Assembly (NCBI GenBank): GCA_001515945.1 | Contig: LOER01000025.1 | Location: 1-64,000 of the forward strand | Direction: 5' to 3' | Origin: Desulfitibacter sp. BRH_c19 | GTDB taxonomy: Bacteria > Bacillota > DSM-16504 > Desulfitibacterales > Desulfitibacteraceae | Length of the DNA: 64,000 nucleotides | Shown: positions 3,510-41,414 of the stretch, piece after piece | Position numbering within the stretch: the stretch's first letter is position 1 | Layout: every line of letters begins with the position of its first letter | Notes under the pieces: generated by a model | Seen by the model: only the letters and a program-made list of their open reading frames with translations | What the model was told of the DNA's origin: nothing | Database searches by the model: none | Program-made: the position numbers and the translations under genes

Positions 3510-5008
3510 TTAAAGTGTGTGTAACAACTTTTTAACTACTTCACAATCGTTAAAGGGAATAACCTTATCGTGTAGTATTTGGGAAGTTTCATGACCCTTA
3601 CCCGCTATAATGACAACATCGCCTGGATCTGCAAGTTTTAAGGCAGTTTGAATGGCTCCATGACGATCCAGTATTATTTGATACTGGGATATGTCCATAC
3701 CACCCCCGAGCACGCCTTCTTCAACTTCCTTTGCTATTTCCAAAGGGTCCTCACGGTATACGTTATCAGTAGAGATTATGCAGTAATCTGAATGTATGGC
3801 TGCAATTTCACCCATCAGCTTGCGTTTTCCCTGATCTTTACCTCCTTCGCATCCAAAGACCAGTATTTTCTTAGCCCCAGAATTAGGATATGGAATGGTA
3901 GATAAAATTTGAAGTAATCCATCAGGATTGTGAGCAAAATCAACCATAATCACGAATTGTTGTCCACACTTGATAAATTCACATCTACCTGGTATTCCTT
4001 TAAAGCTGCTTAAAGCTTCTTGAATGACTTTTATGTCAATGTTAAAACAATGTCCTACAGCTATGGCTGCTATTGCATTATATATGTTATGCAGTCCGGG
4101 TAAAGGCAGAAGAAGGTGTAGTTCCGATTGTTAAGCTTTATTTTAATGAGACTTTCGTTAAGTCTAAGTTCGTAACCTACTACTCGCACATCGGCATTAG
4201 CATTAATTCCATAAGTAAGAATATTAGGAGCTTGAGCAATCTGCGAAATGTATCTGCCATGAGGGTCATCCAGATTGACTACTGCGTAACAGTCTTTATA
4301 AGGATCTTTACGCCATCGACGCTGGTTAGCGAACAGTTTTGACTTACATTGAAGATAATTCTCCATTGTTCCATGAAAATCAAAGTGGTCTCTGGTAAGA
4401 TTAGTAAAGACTGTAACATCAAAATCACAACCTGTTACTCTATGGAGTTCTAAAGCATGTGAAGAGACCTCCATGACCGTTGCCTGTACTTTCTTTTCGA
4501 CCAATTGCTGAAACATTTTTCCTAATTCTATGGTATCAGGGGTAGTAAGTCCTGCAGGCCAAACTTTCTCACCTATCTTGTAATTAACTGTTCCAATTAG
4601 CCCAGTCAGATACCCAGCCATTTGTAAGATTGCTTCAGTCAAAAATGCCACAGTTGTTTTTCCATTAGTACCTGTAATACCAACAAGTTTAAACTTAGAT
4701 GTCGGATAATTATAAAAATGCTGGATACCTATAGCTTGAGCTAATCGAGAGTTTTCTACAATTAGCTGAACAATGGGGATATTGAGTCTTTTCTCTGATA
4801 CCACAGCTACTGCTCCCCGTTTCACAGCGTCATTAACATATAAATGTCCATCTCGCTTGTAACCGGATATGCAAAAAAATAAACAATCTCGTTTTACATT
4901 TTTAGAGTTGTTTGCAATGTTTAGGATTTCCAAGTCCTGTCTGCCATCAATTGGTAAAGGTTTAATGACCTTTACCAACTCACTTAAAAGCATTCTTTCC
5001 ACCACCAT
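3510..5008 (-). pseudogene. MurE-like Mur ligase paralog, frameshifted
   Basis: Two adjacent minus-strand frames together make one Mur ligase. The upstream part (5008 down to about 4110) has GITGTNGKTT, EVSSHALELHR and NLTRDHFDFHGTMENY. The downstream part (about 4117 down to 3510) has LPLPGLHNIYNAIAAIAVG, DFAHNPDG and AGKGHETSQ. The frames join if one base is added or lost in the TTCTTCTG stretch at about 4107-4116. MurE adds the third stem-peptide residue to UDP-MurNAc-dipeptide. The DNPR motif that reads meso-diaminopimelate is altered to DNVYREDP, suggesting another substrate. Essential murE normally lies in the division cluster, so this is probably an expendable second copy. Confidence 0.85.
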
Positions 5009-5183
5009 ATAATCTGTTATATAAGCGTCTGGCGACCGTTTACATTATGTTATGAAATAGTTTTCCATAAAGTTCCTTTATTACTTAACTTGTAATTTGA
5101 TAATGATTTCAGGTTTTGTAGTTTCTTGTTATTTTTGTATATTAATGGGGGGTTTAGAGGATTTGCTTGTTAATTGATATGGC

Positions 5184-5399
5184 ATGCCCTTGCCGTGGAG
5201 GCCGTTATGCTGCGGATTTGGCATTCCCCAGAGTACTAGGGATGCATTTGATTTCTTGAGTGAAAATAAGGTTATAGATGAACTGCTTGCAGAAAGACTG
5301 AAAGGTATGGTAGGATTTCGCAACATTGCTATTCATGATTACCGAAAGATAAATCTGGAAATCGTGCAAAAGGTCATTGAGTATCAAGAGTTTATCTAG
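5184..5399 (+). pseudogene. HepT-like HEPN toxin, C-terminal remnant
   Basis: From about 5205 the frame reads GIPQSTRDAFDFLSENKVID and then MVGFRNIAIHDYRKI. This is the second half of HepT (DUF86) proteins, including the RNase motif R-x4-H (RNIAIH). The N-terminal half normally present before 'GIPQSYREAF' is missing or unrecognisable, the first 20 or so codons look random, and no ribosome site or nucleotidyltransferase partner lies upstream. It is a separate remnant from the HEPN gene at 612-955. Confidence 0.7.
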
Positions 5400-5421
5400 C
5401 CAAGGTGGTTATTCAATAGTT

Positions 5422-5450
5422 GAGCCTGTCTATTATCAATAGGCAGGCTC
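5422..5450 (-). terminator. Hairpin downstream of the mreB paralog
   Basis: GAGCCTGTCTATT pairs with AATAGGCAGGCTC across a three-base loop, giving a 13-bp stem with one G-T pair. It sits just beyond the stop of the minus-strand mreB-like gene. No U-tract follows on either strand, so termination is likely but not certain. Confidence 0.5.
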
Positions 5451-5456
5451 TGGATT

Positions 5457-6482
5457 TCAAGGAAAGTTTTGATGCCCCATAAGAGATATTCGTGTAAGAG
5501 CTTTTGTATTTTTGGTTATCTGGCCTGTCCCGAGGACTACACAATCCTCCGGATCAGGTGGAACTGTTACAGATAGCTCAACCTTGGAAGCTATATATTG
5601 ATCAAGACTTTTTAAATTCGCACTACCCCCTGTCAAGACAATTCCTTTTTCAATTATATCGGATGCCAGCTGGGGAGGAGTGCTTTCAAAGACTTGACGA
5701 ATCGCTAATATTAAATCCTTTAAGGTATCTTGTATTACTTTATTGATTTCTACTATAGATATTTCTTTTGCAATAGGTAAGCCTGTTTTCATATTAATAC
5801 CACGTATATACGCTATATCATCTGGCGCGTTAAAGGCATCAGCATATTTAATTTTAAAGTTTTCTGCTGTTATTAAGCCTATTTCAATCCGATAGATTTT
5901 CTTTAAATGGTTATAAATTGCCATGTCAAGGGCATCCCCTGCCACCTTAAGGGATACGGCTGTTACTATCCCACCAAGAGAAATGACAGCAATTTCACTA
6001 GTCCCAGCACCAATGTTGACAATCATATGCCCTGAAGGTTCTTCTACGGATAACCCAGCGCCAATGGCCGCTGCTAGAGGTTCTTCAATCAGTAAGGTTT
6101 TTTTCGCACCTGACTGCTGAGCAGCTTCAATTACAGCCCTTTTTTCAATGTCTGTGATGCCATAGGGTATACTAATAATTACCCAAGGACTTCTAATGGA
6201 AAATTTGTTTAATACAGACCTCAGAAAATGTTTTATCATGGTACGTGTTATATCAAAGTCAGCTATTACACCATTACGAAGAGGCCGAATTACCCTGATA
6301 TTTCCGGGGGTTTTCCCAACCATTGCTTTAGCTTCAGTACCTATTGCTACTAAAGAACCATTATTAGTATCAATTGAAACTACTGATGGCTCACGTAGAA
6401 CTATTCCCTTATTATGTACGTATATAAGAGTATTGGCTGATCCCAAGTCTATTCCAACAGTGTTAACTCCACCAGTAACCAT
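5457..6482 (-). CDS. MreB/Mbl-family bacterial actin paralog
   Basis: A 341-residue protein with the actin-fold phosphate-1 loop (VGIDLGSANTLIYV), IEEPLAAAIGAGL, the second phosphate loop, and GIVLTGGSANLKSLDQYI. MreB proteins form membrane-bound filaments that direct cell-wall synthesis. The second phosphate loop reads VNIGAGTSE instead of the usual VDIGGGTTE, replacing the conserved aspartate with asparagine, so ATP hydrolysis may differ. No mreC or mreD lies beside it, unlike the main mreBCD operon, which suggests an Mbl/MreBH-like secondary copy. GAGGTG precedes the ATG by eight bases. It is divergent from holA and next to other wall-related genes. Confidence 0.9.
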   Translation of the reverse strand: MVTGGVNTVGIDLGSANTLIYVHNKGIVLREPSVVSIDTNNGSLVAIGTEAKAMVGKTPGNIRVIRPLRNGVIADFDITRTMIKHFLRSVLNKFSIRSPWVIISIPYGITDIEKRAVIEAAQQSGAKKTLLIEEPLAAAIGAGLSVEEPSGHMIVNIGAGTSEIAVISLGGIVTAVSLKVAGDALDMAIYNHLKKIYRIEIGLITAENFKIKYADAFNAPDDIAYIRGINMKTGLPIAKEISIVEINKVIQDTLKDLILAIRQVFESTPPQLASDIIEKGIVLTGGSANLKSLDQYIASKVELSVTVPPDPEDCVVLGTGQITKNTKALTRISLMGHQNFP

Positions 6483-6622
6483 ATAAAATTCACCTCACAG
6501 CTATTATTTCTTAATAGAACCTTTTAGATACTGGTAAGCTAGACCAAAAACCACTATAATAAAAAGATAAGCAATTTTTTCTTATAGCAATTTAAAATAT
6601 AAATTGAAAGGCGGCATAACAT

Positions 6623-7630
6623 GTGGCAGATCTTAATAGTGCCGTGAAAGAAGTAAAAAAAGGAAATGTTTTTCCTATCTATCTCTTGACAGGAGACAAT
6701 GACTTCTTAAAGGACATTCTTATTGGAAACTTTAAAGAAGCTTTGCTACAGGGGGAGAATGGCGAATTTAATTTTCAAAAATATGACCACGTTGACACAT
6801 TAAAGGCTATTATTGATGTTGCAAATTCTCTGCCTTTTTTTTCTAAATGGAGACTAATTGTGGTTAAGGATGAAAGTGTATTTAAGCCTGGTTCTTTTTC
6901 AGACAATGATTACAAATATGTTACTGAATATCTAACTAATCCAAACCCCACAACATGCTTAATATTTTTAGCAAGGAGTGATGTTGATAAAAGAGGCAAG
7001 CTATATAAAAAACTCTCTGAGAAAGGGAAAGTTTTAAATTGTGAAACTCCTAAAGGTGTCAGCATCATAAACTGGATAAATAGAGAGTTTTCAACTTACG
7101 AAAAGAACCCTGATAATGCTTTAGTAAATATATTAGCATCAGTTGCAAAGGGAGACTTATACTTTCTCACAAATGAGATAAAGAAAATTTGTTCTTATGT
7201 GGGCAATAAGCAGGCGATATATTATGAAGAAGTTCGAGAAGTCCTTGCAAAAACAATAGATACAGGTATATTTCAAATGATAGATCATCTTGCAGAAAAG
7301 GATCTTAATAAGGCACTTAAAGAATTAAACGATCTACTCGAACTTGGGGAAGCGCCAATTCTAATAAACAATATGCTTGCAAGGCATTATAGGCTTTTGT
7401 TACATTATTTGGTATATAAGAAAAAGGGTTATTCGGAAAAGCAATTAAGTCAAAAACTAGGTGTTCGCTTCTTTGTGGTTTCTAAGCTAAGCAGTCAATC
7501 AAAACACTATAATCAAAGAAAACTGATTGACACTTTGAATATTCTATATGAAAATGACTTAAAAATTAAGACTACATCTTCTGATAATAGAAGAATGCTA
7601 GAACTGACTTTAATTGAACTAGCTAATTAA
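6623..7630 (+). CDS. holA: DNA polymerase III delta subunit
   Basis: A 335-residue clamp-loader protein. The N-terminus (VFPIYLLTGDNDFLKDILIG) and the domain containing SWIN-like NWINREF match HolA, which opens the beta sliding clamp and loads it on DNA with delta-prime and DnaX. The start is GTG at 6623, eight bases after AAAGGCGG. It follows the usual comEC-holA order, although about 6.5 kb of accessory genes now intervene. A strong hairpin with a short T run closes the transcription unit downstream. Confidence 0.92.
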   Translation: MADLNSAVKEVKKGNVFPIYLLTGDNDFLKDILIGNFKEALLQGENGEFNFQKYDHVDTLKAIIDVANSLPFFSKWRLIVVKDESVFKPGSFSDNDYKYVTEYLTNPNPTTCLIFLARSDVDKRGKLYKKLSEKGKVLNCETPKGVSIINWINREFSTYEKNPDNALVNILASVAKGDLYFLTNEIKKICSYVGNKQAIYYEEVREVLAKTIDTGIFQMIDHLAEKDLNKALKELNDLLELGEAPILINNMLARHYRLLLHYLVYKKKGYSEKQLSQKLGVRFFVVSKLSSQSKHYNQRKLIDTLNILYENDLKIKTTSSDNRRMLELTLIELAN

Positions 7631-7898: not shown

Positions 7899-7919
7899 AA
7901 AGACCTCATTGAGGTCTTT
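7899..7919 (-). terminator. rpsT terminator
   Basis: On the minus strand AAAGACCTCA pairs with TGAGGTCTTT with almost no loop, followed by ATTATTTTT. It overlaps the stop codon of rpsT, a compact arrangement typical of ribosomal protein genes. Confidence 0.8.
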
Positions 7920-8185
7920 TAGCTCATCATATCCTTTAAATTTTTACTAAGTCTGGATTTCTTTCTTGCAGCAGTATTTTTATGCAAAAACCCTTTAGAA
8001 ACTGCCTTATCTAGTGTTTTTACTGTACTTTTGTATGCAGTTTGGGCTTGTTCATTTTCACCATTTGCTAAAGCATTCTCAAATCTTTTAACTGAAGTTT
8101 TGATTGCAGATTTAGCAGCAGTATTTCTTAAATTTTGACGAGAAGAAATACCAAGTCTCTTTTTCGCTGATTTAATATTAGGCAC
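7919..8185 (-). CDS. rpsT: 30S ribosomal protein S20
   Basis: An 88-residue basic protein starting MPNIKSAKKRLGISSRQNLR and containing KGFLHKNTAARKKSRL, the S20 signature. S20 binds 16S rRNA and helps assemble the small subunit. The GTG at 8185 is chosen because S20 begins 'PNIKSA' and AAGGAGG lies eight bases upstream. A GTG nine bases earlier overlaps that ribosome site. It is convergent with holA, as in many Firmicutes. Translation autoregulation is known for S20 elsewhere; nothing here shows it. Confidence 0.97.
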   Translation of the reverse strand: MPNIKSAKKRLGISSRQNLRNTAAKSAIKTSVKRFENALANGENEQAQTAYKSTVKTLDKAVSKGFLHKNTAARKKSRLSKNLKDMMS

Positions 8186-8407
8186 TATGTACACCTCCTT
8201 ATTAGCCGATCCATATTGCTTAAATAATTTATACTATAACACGGAATATTTTATCATGTATATAAACAAAATGCAAGAAAACAAAATAGTCTAAAAGAAT
8301 TGTGTAGAACAATTGTGCCAAAGAATAAAATGATTTAATATTTCAAGAGAAAGTGAGAATTTCAATGGAAATAAAAGAAAATCATATCTTTTTATGAAAA
8401 TAACCGT

Positions 8408-8583
8408 TATAATAAAAATATATGGTAGTTCTTGACGAAATCTAAAACAAATGATTTTAGTATTAAGGCAAGGATTGAGTATAACGCCAGCAGATCATTT
8501 GATGGATCTAAATGATGACCCAGGTAGCCCTACAAAAAATCATACTGCAATTATGATGAAAGACTACCAATGCTAGTCTTTTT
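8408..8583 (+). other. Possible short transcript with 41-codon ORF (8451-8576)
   Basis: Within the 466-bp gap between rpsT and the ATP-grasp gene there is a TATAAT at 8408-8413. A frame at 8451-8576 encodes a 41-residue peptide containing LSITPADHLMDLNDDPGSPT. A hairpin follows (AAAGACTA / TAGTCTTTT at about 8559-8579) with a T run. No convincing ribosome site precedes the ATG, so this may be a small RNA, a leader, or a remnant of a lost gene rather than a translated peptide. I see nothing else recognisable in 8195-8400. Confidence 0.35.
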
Positions 8584-8660
8584 TGTAATTATTGTGGTGA
8601 AACTATCTATTAGTAAATAATAACATACAAGAGATTGCAAACAGAAAGGATATTCAAGAA

Positions 8661-9725
8661 ATGAGAATGCTGAGAATTCCTGAATATAGAGATAGTACAA
8701 GAGTTATACCAGAAAATGAACGTTTAGAAAGTGCACCATTATTATATTTTGAATGGCCAGTATCTGTTCCTAAACCATTTGTTGGTCTGGTTAAATCAGA
8801 ACGAGGGAATGACGCATATTGGCCAAAATTTGAACGGTTTCTTAATACTAACAAGATCCATTATAAAGAACTTGATATAAAAGCATCAAATTTTATATCT
8901 GAGTGTAAGAATTTGGACATCATTGTTTGGAGGACTTTATCAAATTATGTTGACCAGTGGGAGGCAGCTGATAAAGTTGAGTTTATCCAAGACAGCCTTG
9001 GAAAATTGATTTTACCACCGAGACAAGCCCTGTGGATGGATGAAGATAAAATTAGAGCACAATGGTTGTTTGAGTTAAACCATCTTCCTGTTATTAATAC
9101 CTTTGTATCCTATTCAAAAGAGGAGACAAAAAAGCATATTGAAACTTGCCAATATCCTTTTATATCAAAAGATAAAACCTGCTCCAGGTCAAAAGGTGTT
9201 CATTTGATAGAAAATAAGAAGCAAGCAAGAACACTAATGGAAAAAGTATTTGATGGTGGACTGAAACTTAATAATTCATATGTTAAACAGAAAAATTATG
9301 TATATTTTCAGAAATTTGTACTGAATAAAGGTTTTGATCTTCGAGTCATTATGATAGGCAATTCATACTTCGGTTATTACAGGTTTCCTAAAAAGGGTGA
9401 TTATAGAGCCTCCGGTTCTGGGATAGTTGCGAAAAAGGATATACCATTAGAGGTGTTGCTATTAGCTAAAAAAGTTCGTGATTGCTTACCAAAGTCATAT
9501 TTATTAGCAGTTGATTTTTTACAGGCCACGCATGATGATAAGTATTTTATTATAGAGGCATCAATTTTCATTACTATGGAATCATGTGAACAACTAGTTG
9601 TAAACGGTGTAGCTGGACGATATCTTGAGCAAGATGACAAATTCACATTTGAGCCAGGTCGTTTTTGGATTCAAGAGCTTATGATGGAAGAGTTAATGAA
9701 AGATTGGGTTTTAAAAAATTCATAA
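8661..9725 (+). CDS. ATP-grasp ligase, RimK-like (substrate unknown)
   Basis: A 354-residue protein. The central lysine region PFISKDKTCSRSKGVHLI, then FQKFVLNKGFDLRVIMIGNS, the basic FPKKGDYRASGSG segment and the metal-binding end LLAVDFL ... KYFIIEAS follow the order of ATP-grasp carboxylate-amine ligases related to RimK and YheCD. Such enzymes make amide or ester bonds through acyl-phosphates, adding amino acids, closing peptide rings or building small peptides. The N-terminal 130 residues fit no family I know. AGAAAGGA precedes the ATG by 11 bases. The stop is 17 bp before the start of a carboxyethylornithine-synthase-like gene, suggesting a shared pathway. Substrate and product are unknown. 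Confidence 0.75.
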   Translation: MRMLRIPEYRDSTRVIPENERLESAPLLYFEWPVSVPKPFVGLVKSERGNDAYWPKFERFLNTNKIHYKELDIKASNFISECKNLDIIVWRTLSNYVDQWEAADKVEFIQDSLGKLILPPRQALWMDEDKIRAQWLFELNHLPVINTFVSYSKEETKKHIETCQYPFISKDKTCSRSKGVHLIENKKQARTLMEKVFDGGLKLNNSYVKQKNYVYFQKFVLNKGFDLRVIMIGNSYFGYYRFPKKGDYRASGSGIVAKKDIPLEVLLLAKKVRDCLPKSYLLAVDFLQATHDDKYFIIEASIFITMESCEQLVVNGVAGRYLEQDDKFTFEPGRFWIQELMMEELMKDWVLKNS

Positions 9726-9742
9726 ACAAGAAGAGGGAAATA

Positions 9743-10699
9743 ATGAAATCTATGGGATTCTTAATGAGTACCAAAGAAAATGAAAAACGAAGAGCTTTGC
9801 TGCCAGAACAAATAAGTGGAATTAAAAACAAGAACTATCTGTTTTTTGAAAGAGGTTATGGTAAAGCATTAGGATATACAGATGCTGAATATATTAAGCA
9901 AGGTGCTAATGTATCATCAAAAGAGGAGGTCATAACAAAAGATATAATTTGCGATCCCAAGATAGGAGATGCAGACTATCTTCTAGAGTTAAGAGAAAAT
10001 CAAGCTATCTTTGGTTATGTACATGCAGTCCACAATAGAAATATCACAGATATAATAGTAGAAAAATCTTTAACCGCAATTGCATGGGAGGAAATGGCTG
10101 ATAGTGGAAGAAACGTTTTTTGGAGAAACAATGAACTTGCAGGAGAAGCCGCTATCATGCATGCGTTCACAATATATGGCAAAATGCCTTATGAATGTAA
10201 AGTTGCAATAATAGGAAGGGGAAATATTGCACGTGGAGCATATAGGATACTATCTTCATTAGGTGCTGATATAGTAGTTTATGATAGGAAAATGGAAAGT
10301 TTATTAAGGAAAGAAATTGCTGATTATGATGTTATTGTAAATGGTGTTTTATGGAACACCAATGGGCAAGAGCACGTGATTTATCGTGAGGATCTAAAAC
10401 GAATGAAAAAAAGTTCAATAATTATTGACATTAGCTGTGATAAGGCTGGTTTTGTTGAAACTAGTGTCCCGACAACCATTGAAGATCCAGTATATATTTC
10501 TGGAGGTATCTTACATTATGTGGTTGATCATACGCCAGCTATAATATTTCATACAGCATCAAGAGTATTTGGCAATGTACTTGTTAAATATATTGATGAT
10601 ATTATAGAGGACAATATTGAAAGCAACGATACAATAAAAAATGCAGTTATTATTAAGAATGGTATTATCATTGATAAGCAAATACTAAATCACCTCTAA
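9743..10699 (+). CDS. N5-(carboxyethyl)ornithine synthase-like dehydrogenase
   Basis: A 318-residue protein that opens MKSMGFLMSTKENEKRRALL, the conserved start of the alanine dehydrogenase/transhydrogenase N-terminal domain as found in N5-(carboxyethyl)ornithine synthase. Around residues 150-180 it has the NAD(P)-binding loop VAIIGRGNIARGAYRILSSL. The characterised lactococcal enzyme is 313 residues and reductively condenses pyruvate with the side-chain amine of ornithine or lysine. The ATG at 9743 follows AGAGGGA and gives the family length. It lies 17 bp downstream of the ATP-grasp ligase. This function is inferred; a saccharopine- or alanine-dehydrogenase-like role remains possible. Confidence 0.75.
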   Translation: MKSMGFLMSTKENEKRRALLPEQISGIKNKNYLFFERGYGKALGYTDAEYIKQGANVSSKEEVITKDIICDPKIGDADYLLELRENQAIFGYVHAVHNRNITDIIVEKSLTAIAWEEMADSGRNVFWRNNELAGEAAIMHAFTIYGKMPYECKVAIIGRGNIARGAYRILSSLGADIVVYDRKMESLLRKEIADYDVIVNGVLWNTNGQEHVIYREDLKRMKKSSIIIDISCDKAGFVETSVPTTIEDPVYISGGILHYVVDHTPAIIFHTASRVFGNVLVKYIDDIIEDNIESNDTIKNAVIIKNGIIIDKQILNHL

Positions 10700-10761
10700 A
10701 GTATAAAAACACTTATTTACGGGAATGAATAATTATAAATTCATGAAGAGGAGGTGAAGTA

Positions 10762-11111: not shown

Positions 11112-11144
11112 AGATCCATGGAGCTTTCCATGGATCTTTTTTTT
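11112..11144 (+). terminator. Terminator after the YvlD-like gene
   Basis: AGATCCATGGA (11112-11122) pairs with TCCATGGATCT (11127-11137) around a GCTT loop and runs into eight T residues. Confidence 0.92.
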
Positions 11145-11257: not shown

Positions 11258-12370
11258 ATGAGAAATTATAATAGGAGAAAAACACATTATCTATCATGGA
11301 TAATTGCTACTTTTTTAGTAATAGGCTTCTTTGTGCTAGGAGTAGTTATTGGCCTTGGTAATGGTAGCACTAAACAAAGTGAAGACGTTGCATATTTTTC
11401 AAACTCCATTAACATTATGGGTGTTTTCACAGATTCACACAGAGGCATTTTAAATTTGGCAATACCCCTGCTTGGACTCCAAACTGGATATTCCCAAAAT
11501 ATTTATGGTTCAGGAGATAAATTAGTCCAAAAGGTGGTATCTAGTATTACTAGTATTACCAATCCTAAAAGCTTTCTAGGTTCAGAAATAGCCTTTATGA
11601 AGACTTCTGAAATGGAGGATGAAGATGCTATCATTAGTGAATCGCCTGTCATAACTGAAGAAGAGAAACAGTTTTTTGAAGAATTAGAAAGAAGAAGTCG
11701 AGAAGCTTATCTAAGCAATCCTGGAGAAGAAAGCTTAGCAAGTGGCGATAAACCTTTAGTTCTGATATATAATACACATAATTCCGAAACCTATAAACCT
11801 ACAGATGGTGTGGATAAAATTGAAGGAAAAAATGCTGGAATAGAAAAGGTGGCAGCACATTTAGAGAAGATTCTTTTAGAAAAGCATGGTATAAATTCAG
11901 TACGATCCACAAATATTCATGACTATCCAAATTGGGAAAGCTCCTATGTTAACTCTGAAAAGACAGTAAAAGCTCTATTAAGAGAAAATCCTTCAGTTCA
12001 AATTGTACTGGATATTCATCGTGATGCTGGTTTACCTGAAAAAGGAGTTATTGCAACAACAACTGGTCAAAATATGGCAAAGTTACTATTAGTAGTTGGC
12101 AGCGATAATCGTTTATCCCACCCTAATTGGCAGCAAAATTGGCAGTTTTCTAAAATGATAGGATATAAAATGGATAAATTATATCCGGGTCTTTTAAAAT
12201 CTGTAAGAGTACAAAGTGGAAGATATAATCAGCATTTACATGAAAGATCAATATTAGTGGAAGTTGGCTGTACTCAGAATACTTTAAAAGAGGCATTAAT
12301 GTCTGCAGAAGCCTTAGCAGATGTCATAAAAGATGTTTTGATCGATTTAAGACAAGAAAATACTTTTTAA
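11258..12370 (+). CDS. spoIIP: Stage II sporulation protein P
   Basis: A 370-residue cell-wall hydrolase with one N-terminal membrane anchor (about residues 14-36, IATFLVIGFFVLGVVIGL) and a forespore-engulfment catalytic domain from about residue 165. Its residues include YNTHNSETYKP, VLDIHRDAG and ERSILVEVGCTQN, which supply the histidines and glutamate of the amidase/endopeptidase centre. SpoIIP works with SpoIID and SpoIIM to thin septal peptidoglycan during engulfment. The GGTGGGGGGA ribosome site is strong. In many Clostridia it directly follows gpr, which is absent from this position. Confidence 0.96.
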   Translation: MRNYNRRKTHYLSWIIATFLVIGFFVLGVVIGLGNGSTKQSEDVAYFSNSINIMGVFTDSHRGILNLAIPLLGLQTGYSQNIYGSGDKLVQKVVSSITSITNPKSFLGSEIAFMKTSEMEDEDAIISESPVITEEEKQFFEELERRSREAYLSNPGEESLASGDKPLVLIYNTHNSETYKPTDGVDKIEGKNAGIEKVAAHLEKILLEKHGINSVRSTNIHDYPNWESSYVNSEKTVKALLRENPSVQIVLDIHRDAGLPEKGVIATTTGQNMAKLLLVVGSDNRLSHPNWQQNWQFSKMIGYKMDKLYPGLLKSVRVQSGRYNQHLHERSILVEVGCTQNTLKEALMSAEALADVIKDVLIDLRQENTF

Positions 12371-24954: not shown

Positions 24955-25719
24955 TTGTACCAGTTTCATATTCCCAAAGTATTAACAAGTGCAACTGATG
25001 ACTTAAAGAACAATAAAATGGAAATATTAGGGGAAGAAGCTCATCATATTGCTAATGTACTGCGCCTTAAAGAAGGTGCTATTGTAGGTTTATTTGACGG
25101 AATTGGCAATAAAGCTACTGGTGTTCTAATTGATGTCGATCATGATAGAATACTGGTAGAATTACATAAAGAAAAAATGGCAAATACAGAACCACCAATA
25201 GAAGTCACCCTATATCAGTCTTTACCGAAGAAGGAGAAGCTTGAGCTAATTATCCAAAAAGCTACTGAGTTAGGTGTGAAAAACATTGTTCCTATTATAA
25301 CCAGAAGAACAATTGTACATATTGATAACCAAAAGGTCAAGAAGAAAGTGGAGCGTTGGAATAAAATTGCCCAGGAGGCTTGCAAACAATCAGGCAGGGC
25401 ATATATTCCGAAAGTTAGCGAACCGATAAGCTATAAAAGCATATTTTCTCAATTAAACTCACAGCTTATTCTAATACCTTATGAGGCAGAGGAAAAGAGA
25501 GGTTTGCGCCAGGTATTGAAGTCTTTCAAGACATCAATACCTAAAAGTGTTGGTTTTTTTATAGGGCCCGAAGGGGGCTGGGACAAAGATGAAATTCAAA
25601 TGGCTCTGGATAATGGTGTTCATCCGGTTACTTTGGGACCGAGGATACTTAGAACTGAAACTGCCAGCCTTGCAGTTTTGACTATGATACTATATGAACT
25701 GGGTGATTTAGGAGGCTAA
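24955..25719 (+). CDS. rsmE: 16S rRNA (uracil-1498-N3)-methyltransferase
   Basis: About 254 residues of SPOUT fold. ILGEEAHHIANVLRLKEG marks the PUA-like N-terminal domain. IIQKATELGVKNIVPIITRR, IGPEGGWDKDEIQMA and LGPRILRTETASLAVL form the knotted SAM site. RsmE methylates U1498 in helix 44 of 16S rRNA. The TTG at 24955 is preferred because the protein then begins LYQFHIPK, as in the family, with AAAGGGTGA upstream overlapping the prmA stop. A longer frame from 24895 would run inside prmA. Confidence 0.93.
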   Translation: MYQFHIPKVLTSATDDLKNNKMEILGEEAHHIANVLRLKEGAIVGLFDGIGNKATGVLIDVDHDRILVELHKEKMANTEPPIEVTLYQSLPKKEKLELIIQKATELGVKNIVPIITRRTIVHIDNQKVKKKVERWNKIAQEACKQSGRAYIPKVSEPISYKSIFSQLNSQLILIPYEAEEKRGLRQVLKSFKTSIPKSVGFFIGPEGGWDKDEIQMALDNGVHPVTLGPRILRTETASLAVLTMILYELGDLGG

Positions 25720-25722
25720 ATT

Positions 25723-27024
25723 GTGGACAAAAAGGTTGCAGTACATGTTCTTGGGTGTAAGGTAAACCAGTACGAAGTAGAAGGTATTAAAGAATTATTT
25801 AAAGAAAAGGGTTATGAAATAGTTGATTTTGCTGAAAAGGCAGATGTTTATTTGATTCACACTTGTACAGTAACCCATCTAGGTGACAGAAAATCGCGAC
25901 AGTTTATCAGAAAAGCAGTAAAAAATAATCCAAAGGCAATTGTTGCAGTAACAGGTTGTTATGCCCAGGTTTCTCCCAAGGAAGTGGAAGAAATAGAAGG
26001 TGTGGATATTGTATTAGGTACTAAAGATAGAAGAAAAATAGTGGAGATAGTAGAAAACGCTCAGAAAGGAAATCAATTAAAGTTCATAGCTGATAGTAAC
26101 AGTAATAGAGAATTCGAAGAATTACCTATTTTCAAACCATCCAGGGCTAGGGCCTTTTTGAAAATTCAGGAAGGATGTGATAGGTTTTGTACTTATTGCA
26201 TTGTACCCTATGCTAGGGGGCCAGTAAAAAGCAGAGATTTTAATAATACAATTGCAGAAATTCAGCAACTTGTGGCTAATGGATTTCAAGAAATTGTATT
26301 AACAGGAGTACATCTAGGTACTTATGGTAAGGATTTAACAGATAGTAAGAATTTATTTTATTTAATTAATGAACTTGTTAAGATCGATAAGCTAAAGAGG
26401 CTTAGAATAAGTTCACTTGATCCTGATGACATTAGTTTAGATTTACTGAACCTGATGACTCAAAATGAAAAGATTTGTTCCCATTACCACATTCCCCTAC
26501 AGAGTGGAGATGAATTCATACTTAAAAAGATGGGAAGAAGATATACTTTGGATCATTACAGAAAACTAGTGAAAGACATTAGGGCTAAAAGACCAGATGC
26601 AGCATTTACAACGGATGTAATAGTGGGTTTTCCTGGAGAGACAGAAGATCATTTTACTAATTCTGCAGAATTTATTAAGGAAATAGGTTTTGCTGATCTG
26701 CATGTTTTCAAATATTCTCCTAGAAAAGGCACACCTGCTGCAGATTATTCTAACCAGGTGCCATCAGAGATTAAAACACTAAGAAGTAGCCATCTAATGA
26801 AATTATCCTATGAGTTGTGGAAACAATATGCAGGCAAATTTTTGGGTAAAGAAGGCCAAGTTCTAGTTGAAAATTTATCAAATAATAGCTGGGAAGGTCA
26901 TACTGACAATTACTTAAAGACAAAGTTTGAAAAAAGTTTACAGCAGGATATAACTGGAGAAATTGTAACAGTTAAGCTAGAAAAAATTGGAGAAAACAAA
27001 GAAGTATATGCAAAGCTTATTTGA
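25723..27024 (+). CDS. mtaB: tRNA threonylcarbamoyladenosine methylthiotransferase MtaB
   Basis: A 433-residue radical SAM methylthiotransferase. The N-terminal UPF0004 domain has HVLGCKVNQYE, HTCTVTHLGD and AVTGCYAQV, with three cysteines for the auxiliary cluster. The radical SAM motif is GCDRFCTYCIVPYARGP. A TRAM domain closes the protein. MtaB converts t6A to ms2t6A at position 37 of tRNAs reading ANN codons. The lack of the MiaB-type N-terminal extension and the 'GCKVNQYE' wording distinguish it from MiaB and RimO. The GTG start lies three bases after rsmE, following GGAGG. Confidence 0.95.
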   Translation: MDKKVAVHVLGCKVNQYEVEGIKELFKEKGYEIVDFAEKADVYLIHTCTVTHLGDRKSRQFIRKAVKNNPKAIVAVTGCYAQVSPKEVEEIEGVDIVLGTKDRRKIVEIVENAQKGNQLKFIADSNSNREFEELPIFKPSRARAFLKIQEGCDRFCTYCIVPYARGPVKSRDFNNTIAEIQQLVANGFQEIVLTGVHLGTYGKDLTDSKNLFYLINELVKIDKLKRLRISSLDPDDISLDLLNLMTQNEKICSHYHIPLQSGDEFILKKMGRRYTLDHYRKLVKDIRAKRPDAAFTTDVIVGFPGETEDHFTNSAEFIKEIGFADLHVFKYSPRKGTPAADYSNQVPSEIKTLRSSHLMKLSYELWKQYAGKFLGKEGQVLVENLSNNSWEGHTDNYLKTKFEKSLQQDITGEIVTVKLEKIGENKEVYAKLI

Positions 27025-41061: not shown

Positions 41062-41084
41062 GAATAAGAAATAATATTAGATAT

Positions 41085-41414
41085 AGCTATGAAGAAAAGT
41101 AGTAGGTTTAATTAGTCTTTTAAAGGGCCAGGTTAGTCAGGCGAAAAGAGAGCTGGGTTTGGTGGGAACCAGTAAAGACGTTAAGCTGAAGGCGTTTCTG
41201 AGCTAACAAGGTAAGGGGACACACCTCAATTACGGGTTAATCTGGGTGTCCGAGGAATGTCCCCGAACTTATGGGTACATAATGTCCCCGAACTTATGGG
41301 TACATAATGTCCCCTAATTATTAAGGTGGAGCACTAATGATGTGCTCAATCAGGGTGGAACCGCGGGCAATCCCGTCCCTGTAGTCTAAAAAGACTGCAG
41401 TGGATGGGTTTTTT
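41085..41414 (+). promoter_or_regulatory. Glycine T-box riboswitch with nested repeat insertion
   Basis: The T-box sequence AGGGTGGAACCGCGGG is at 41352-41367. Stem I features are the AGTAG bulge near 41098, AGAGAG near 41145, GGTGGGA near 41161 and a GGC glycine specifier at 41191-41193. Stem III is GAGCAC/GTGCTC (41329-41346). The terminator is CCCGTCC/GGATGGG (41372-41408) with a T tract. Uncharged glycyl-tRNA should stabilise the antiterminator and allow glyQS expression. Between stems I and III lies an unusual block of about 100 bp (41215-41315). Confidence 0.93.
41256..41315 (+). repeat. 25-bp tandem repeat inside the T-box leader
   Basis: Two identical 25-bp units (41256-41280 and 41281-41305) and a partial third (from 41306) each begin AATGTCCCC. 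The first, with flank CGAGGAATGTCCCCGAACTT (41251-41270), is an inverted near-copy of AAGTTAGGGACATTCCTCG at 41441-41459, beyond the terminator. A second AAGTTAGGGACAT copy starts at 41415. Confidence 0.85.

Follow-up and report, generated by a model that had tools for sequence, protein, structure and literature searches.

One of the closest described counterparts of the locus analysed here comes from the capsule pathway of Campylobacter jejuni, where Cj1438C, a protein with a TupA-like ATP-grasp domain, is reported to amidate the C6 carboxylate of the capsule glucuronic acid (PMC11800379). An amide between a uronic acid and a carboxyethyl amino acid is known as a structure: the O-antigen of Providencia rustigianii O14 contains N-epsilon-[(S)-1-carboxyethyl]-N-alpha-(D-galacturonoyl)-L-lysine (PMC10609480). 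We found no genes assigned to such carboxyethyl-lysine uronic-acid amides of O-antigens in the open-access papers searched, and no published account there of the pairing of dehydrogenase and ATP-grasp ligase that we describe.

N(5)-(carboxyethyl)ornithine synthase (CEOS) of Lactococcus belongs to the alanine dehydrogenase (AlaDH) superfamily. Annotated CEOS genes on Lactococcus and Vagococcus plasmids stand alone, with neither ATP-grasp nor polysaccharide genes, unlike the dehydrogenase gene of our locus, which has a ligase as its neighbour. Among ATP-grasp ligases, ArgX and LysX join the alpha-amine of an amino acid to a carboxylate, and the substrates of ArgX, LysX and RimK are LysW or ribosomal protein S6, not sugars.

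Here we analyse two adjacent genes in a stretch of 64,000 nucleotides from Desulfitibacter sp. BRH_c19 (contig LOER01000025.1, positions 1 to 64,000), called the window below, and propose that they probably serve to decorate a surface polysaccharide.

Results

Two adjacent genes at a site that is empty in congeners

As an earlier, preliminary description of this DNA had it, a RimK-like ATP-grasp gene stands 17 bp (9726-9742) before a CEOS-type dehydrogenase gene; the open reading frames and the gap were borne out, and the families were matched in Pfam (Table 1). Purine-rich ribosome sites precede both genes. The pair had also been placed between rpsT and spoIIP, a position linked to the protease gene gpr. 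We did find rpsT upstream, but spoIIP does not directly adjoin the pair, since a Phage_holin_4_2 gene intervenes, and there is no gpr at the rpsT-spoIIP site in either the window or the congener G002. A terminator scan gave no terminator-like site between the pair and the holin-like gene, the next one being at 11112-11137. The holin-like gene, which encodes a membrane protein, is also kept between rpsT and spoIIP in the congeners G001 and G002.

Table 1. Features of the locus (window coordinates)
Feature	Position	Strand	Context	Basis
rpsT	7919-8194	-	upstream of the pair	
Segment of ~2.4 kb that the congeners G001 and G002 lack at this site	8298-10711 (+/- about 12 bp)	+		comparison of congeners
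Hairpin and T run, possible weak terminator or attenuator, not conserved in relatives	8561-8586 (about)	+		sequence, fold; terminator scan did not find the site
RimK-like ATP-grasp amide ligase (predicted), 354 aa	8661-9725	+		Pfam RimK, AF2 model, invariant ATP-grasp residues
CEOS-type pyruvate:amino-acid N-carboxyethyl dehydrogenase (predicted), AlaDH/PNT superfamily, 318 aa	9743-10699	+		Pfam, AF2, residues
Phage_holin_4_2 protein, 110 aa	10762-11094		downstream of the pair, before spoIIP	Pfam
spoIIP	11258-12370		downstream of the holin-like gene	

The two congeners, of the same genus, are without both enzymes and retain rpsT, the holin-like gene and spoIIP. In G002 the starts of rpsT and of the holin-like gene are 171 bp apart, versus 2581 bp in the window, and the edges of the additional segment carry an imperfect short repeat (AGTCTAAAAG / AGTATAAAAA). 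The simpler reading is that the pair is an insert gained by the window lineage; alternatively, it may have been lost in G001 and G002. Since the GC and GC3 of the pair match those of its surroundings, there is no compositional sign of recent transfer.

The order- and class-level searches covered four genomes only. Both genes recur, in unchanged order but at different positions, in the closest relatives, whose ligases are 64-78% and whose dehydrogenases are 77-81% identical to those of the window. In L004 the pair follows an XRE-type gene and a SpoVS gene, and in G118 and L044 it lies near ald, a gene for a 396-aa peptidase-like protein and a Phd-like gene. In the window, L004, L044 and G118 alike, the pair is free-standing.

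The leader of the ligase gene

The preliminary description had seen a short terminated transcript with a 41-codon frame just before the pair. The frame (8451-8576) lies upstream of the ligase gene, but 12% of shuffles contain an open reading frame at least as long on that strand; no Shine-Dalgarno sequence is evident before it, and neither Pfam nor NCBIfam gave a match. The fold of the leader region is no more stable than that of shuffled sequences (z -1.05), and nothing in 8200-8700 matched Rfam, even at E 1. Neither leader nor frame has a conserved copy in the pair-keeping relatives L004, L044 and G118, and a search elsewhere in the window genome returned only a 47-bp match, at chance level. 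The proposed transcript was not confirmed. A riboswitch, small RNA or attenuator in the leader was rejected for the missing Rfam match, the ordinary fold and the missing genomic copy. In L071 and L044, a leader with a long hairpin (GGCACTTACGAT...ATCGTAAGTGCC), 87% identical over 134 bp, stands upstream of the ligase gene; it is absent from the window.

A dehydrogenase of CEOS-type architecture

The dehydrogenase matches the Pfam families AlaDh_PNT_C (1.7e-26) and AlaDh_PNT_N (8.9e-15), and its AF2 model (pLDDT 92.7) has M. tuberculosis AlaDH as its nearest fold (TM 0.90). The best NCBIfam match is alaDH, at 107 bits versus a cut-off of 392. The AlaDH catalytic residues R16, K73, H94 and D233 are present in the window protein and in the relatives aligned. 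In the pocket, however, Asn129 and Thr264 (Ser in one relative) replace the Met and the Ile or Met of AlaDHs from the same loci, and the protein has 318 aa versus 372 for AlaDH, that is, it is ~55 aa shorter; the hallmarks of an alanine dehydrogenase (active-site Met and Met/Ile, ~370 aa) are absent from it. The Asn and Thr are instead common to the annotated CEOS of Lactococcus, Vagococcus and an E. coli plasmid. Lactococcus CEOS thus resembles the window protein in superfamily, short form (~310-318 aa), catalytic residues and Asn/Thr pocket, but the identity to the Lactococcus cremoris enzyme is only ~31%, against 33% to an AlaDH. Because Lactococcus CEOS is about as distant as AlaDH, we regard the dehydrogenase as a separate clade that is "CEOS-type" by architecture, not as a CEOS.

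A RimK-like ligase with few relatives on mobile elements

The ligase matches Pfam RimK (PF08443) at 1.1e-08 and 35.3 bits, above the cut-off of 21. Its AF2 model (pLDDT 77.9) has ArgX, LysX and RimK as nearest solved folds, at identities <20%. K130, K170, R241, D285 and E299 are invariant among homologues, and in the E-x-N motif the usual last Asn is Ser301 in the close group of the ligase. No ligase of the window type was found in phages, and on plasmids there was a single relative among 72,556, in an E. coli exopolysaccharide cluster. There a gene annotated as N(5)-(carboxyethyl)ornithine synthase directly follows the ligase gene, and the cluster also encodes a nucleotide sugar dehydrogenase and an epimerase. 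The same pair occurs on a second E. coli plasmid, with the neighbour annotated as an ATP-grasp domain-containing protein.

The dehydrogenase family recurrently adjoins ATP-grasp genes

In a single scan of genome contigs, close relatives of the dehydrogenase (48-81% identity) turned up at 42 loci, a sample that was seeded by conserved peptide matches and is not random. They span Bacillota, Bacteroidota and one Psychrobacter fragment. The co-occurrence that the preliminary description had suggested looking for is frequent: an ATP-grasp gene lies within 300 bp of the dehydrogenase gene in 33 of the 42 loci, and anywhere in the retrieved locus in 37. The partner ligases belong to three ATP-grasp families, mostly TupA-like, and may precede or follow the dehydrogenase gene; the assignment was ATPgrasp_TupA in all 27 partners tested for it and ATPgrasp_ST in 8 of 9. 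A ligase of the window kind adjoins the dehydrogenase in the window, L004, L010, L012, L044 and G118, with a more distant relative in L051. That the two genes stay adjacent while the ligase family and their order change points to a functional link. In a phylum sample of 399 genomes, five had the dehydrogenase family, three of these with an adjoining ligase. A dehydrogenase gene without a nearby ATP-grasp gene was seen in L009, L026, G156 and G074, the last two from the phylum sample.

The idea of an opine-type dehydrogenase tied to an ATP-grasp ligase is supported by these data: the pocket residues differ from those of AlaDH and the co-occurrence is strong.

Polysaccharide clusters and uronic acid genes

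Most of the 42 loci are exopolysaccharide clusters, with a glycosyltransferase or flippase from the clusters that were counted in 27 of them. A UDP-glucose 6-dehydrogenase gene (called as NDP-sugar dehydrogenase family above the cut-off) and/or a gene of the epimerase cluster was likewise present in 27/42, a raw count in the seeded sample. For the epimerase tested, PDB 5u4q was the stronger match and 6zl6, known as a UDP-glucuronic acid 4-epimerase, the weaker one; because 5u4q carries the depositors' label dTDP-glucose 4,6-dehydratase, the exact epimerase activity is presumptive. On the E. coli plasmid and in the relatives L012 and L010 (the latter Vaginella massiliensis, a cultured bacterium), the pair lies inside a polysaccharide cluster with uronic acid genes, whereas the window pair lies outside any.

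Within its genome the window pair is far from any polysaccharide gene. An exopolysaccharide cluster on contig C41 of this genome encodes a GalU-like protein, a flippase, a polysaccharide pyruvyl transferase and an intact UDP-glucose dehydrogenase, and C46 carries another UDP-glucose-dehydrogenase-like gene. UDP-glucuronic acid should accordingly be available, judging from these gene assignments. A UDP-glucuronate-4-epimerase-like gene in the C41 cluster (G000:C41 ~25290-26380; L090:9291-10381) is broken by frameshifts or stops and stands beside a transposase-like gene, so that galacturonic acid is uncertain in this genome; the breakage is possibly a sequencing error. The window genome gave no TupA match, but neither did the control genomes of that search.

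The amine substrate is touched on by one locus, L018 (2138-5553), where the dehydrogenase gene is followed, without a gap, by genes for a lysine-sensitive aspartokinase and lysA. This order hints at lysine, though weakly, since the aspartokinase and lysA may be housekeeping genes there.

Discussion

We consider it probable that the pair is a polysaccharide-decorating module, in which an opine amino acid is made and then amide-linked to a uronic acid of a surface polysaccharide. We infer both reactions, the amine substrate, the acceptor and an action in trans. The dehydrogenase would reductively couple a diamino acid, through its side-chain amine, to pyruvate and so yield an N-(1-carboxyethyl)amino acid. 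The diamino acid would most likely be lysine, with ornithine possible; lysine is favoured because of the O14 O-antigen structure and the L018 neighbours. The ligase would then activate, at the expense of ATP, the carboxylate that a glucuronic or galacturonic acid carries in a surface polysaccharide repeat or its precursor, and would couple it to the alpha-amine of the carboxyethyl amino acid. The product would be an amide such as N-epsilon-(1-carboxyethyl)-N-alpha-(uronoyl)-lysine, the kind of residue found in the P. rustigianii O14 O-antigen. In the window, the pair, a small insert apart from polysaccharide genes, would modify in trans an exopolysaccharide whose genes lie elsewhere.

Uronate amidation by a TupA-like enzyme, the O14 residue and the families of the two enzymes together lead one to expect such a pair for such residues. 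Cj1438C is akin to the proposed ligase as a capsule-pathway ATP-grasp amide ligase that acts on a uronic acid, and its TupA family is the commonest partner of the dehydrogenase family. It differs in its amine: C. jejuni uses serinol- or ethanolamine-phosphate rather than a carboxyethyl amino acid. The window ligase belongs to a RimK-like branch, whereas the TupA type is the one with known uronate activity.

The pair might instead make a free opine-containing dipeptide or amino-acid conjugate, the ligase coupling the carboxyethyl amino acid to another amino acid. This reading is in line with the free-standing pairs of the close clade (window, L004, L044, G118), the existence of lone dehydrogenases and a ligase fold closest to the amino-acid ligases ArgX, LysX and RimK; ATP-grasp ligases also form dipeptides. 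More distant members of both families are found in exopolysaccharide clusters, however, often with uronic acid genes, and the free-standing pairs come without a transporter, peptide or further tailoring gene. We regard a free conjugate as unlikely, and the preliminary description's free peptide or small molecule gives way as main product because most of the loci are exopolysaccharide clusters. We give very little credence to an ordinary alanine dehydrogenase with an unrelated neighbour: the fold, the catalytic residues and the best NCBIfam match, far below its cut-off, are those of AlaDH, but Asn129 and Thr264 in place of Met and Met/Ile, the ~55 aa lacking, a separate ald-like gene a few genes away in G118 and L044 and the recurring ATP-grasp neighbours all argue against it.

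A spore-specific function set by the rpsT-spoIIP position, which the preliminary description had entertained, would fit the nearby spoIIP and the spoVS gene before the pair in L004. It has little chance of being right: the pair is missing in both congeners although the site is otherwise conserved, it is next to the ald, 396-aa peptidase-like and Phd-like genes in G118 and L044, and the relatives include non-sporulating Bacteroidota. With the congeners empty and the close relatives carrying free-standing pairs at other sites, a role tied to spoIIP is unlikely, and the empty site led us to reject a spore function argued from synteny. Also conceivable from the small open reading frame upstream of an ATP-grasp gene is a graspetide-like ribosomal peptide system with the 41-codon frame as precursor. 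We find it scarcely credible, as the frame is no longer than chance allows, lacks an evident ribosome site, is unconserved in L004, L044 and G118 and has no transporter or protease gene beside it; for its chance-level length and lack of conservation we rejected it as a precursor peptide.

Taking polysaccharide decoration as the preferred reading, a broader idea can be put forward tentatively. The pair may be a two-gene cassette that moves horizontally between unrelated chromosomal sites and edits the surface polysaccharide in trans, using the uronic acids of a separate cluster, with the opine changing the charge of the coat; the wider family might then comprise the genes for carboxyethyl-lysine amides in bacterial glycans. 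Occurring across Bacillota, Bacteroidota and an E. coli plasmid, the pair offers a concrete two-enzyme candidate for uronic amides of opine amino acids and, if the proposal is true, such decorations become predictable from genomes.

Two observations stand apart from these arguments. In L099 (G156; 4768-7540), a lone relative of the dehydrogenase comes directly after a gene for a NamZ-type exo-beta-N-acetylmuramidase, a context from which the opine product may serve another use in some bacteria. Elsewhere in the window, a T-box leader lies at 41080-41383 (Rfam RF00230, 98.9 bits).
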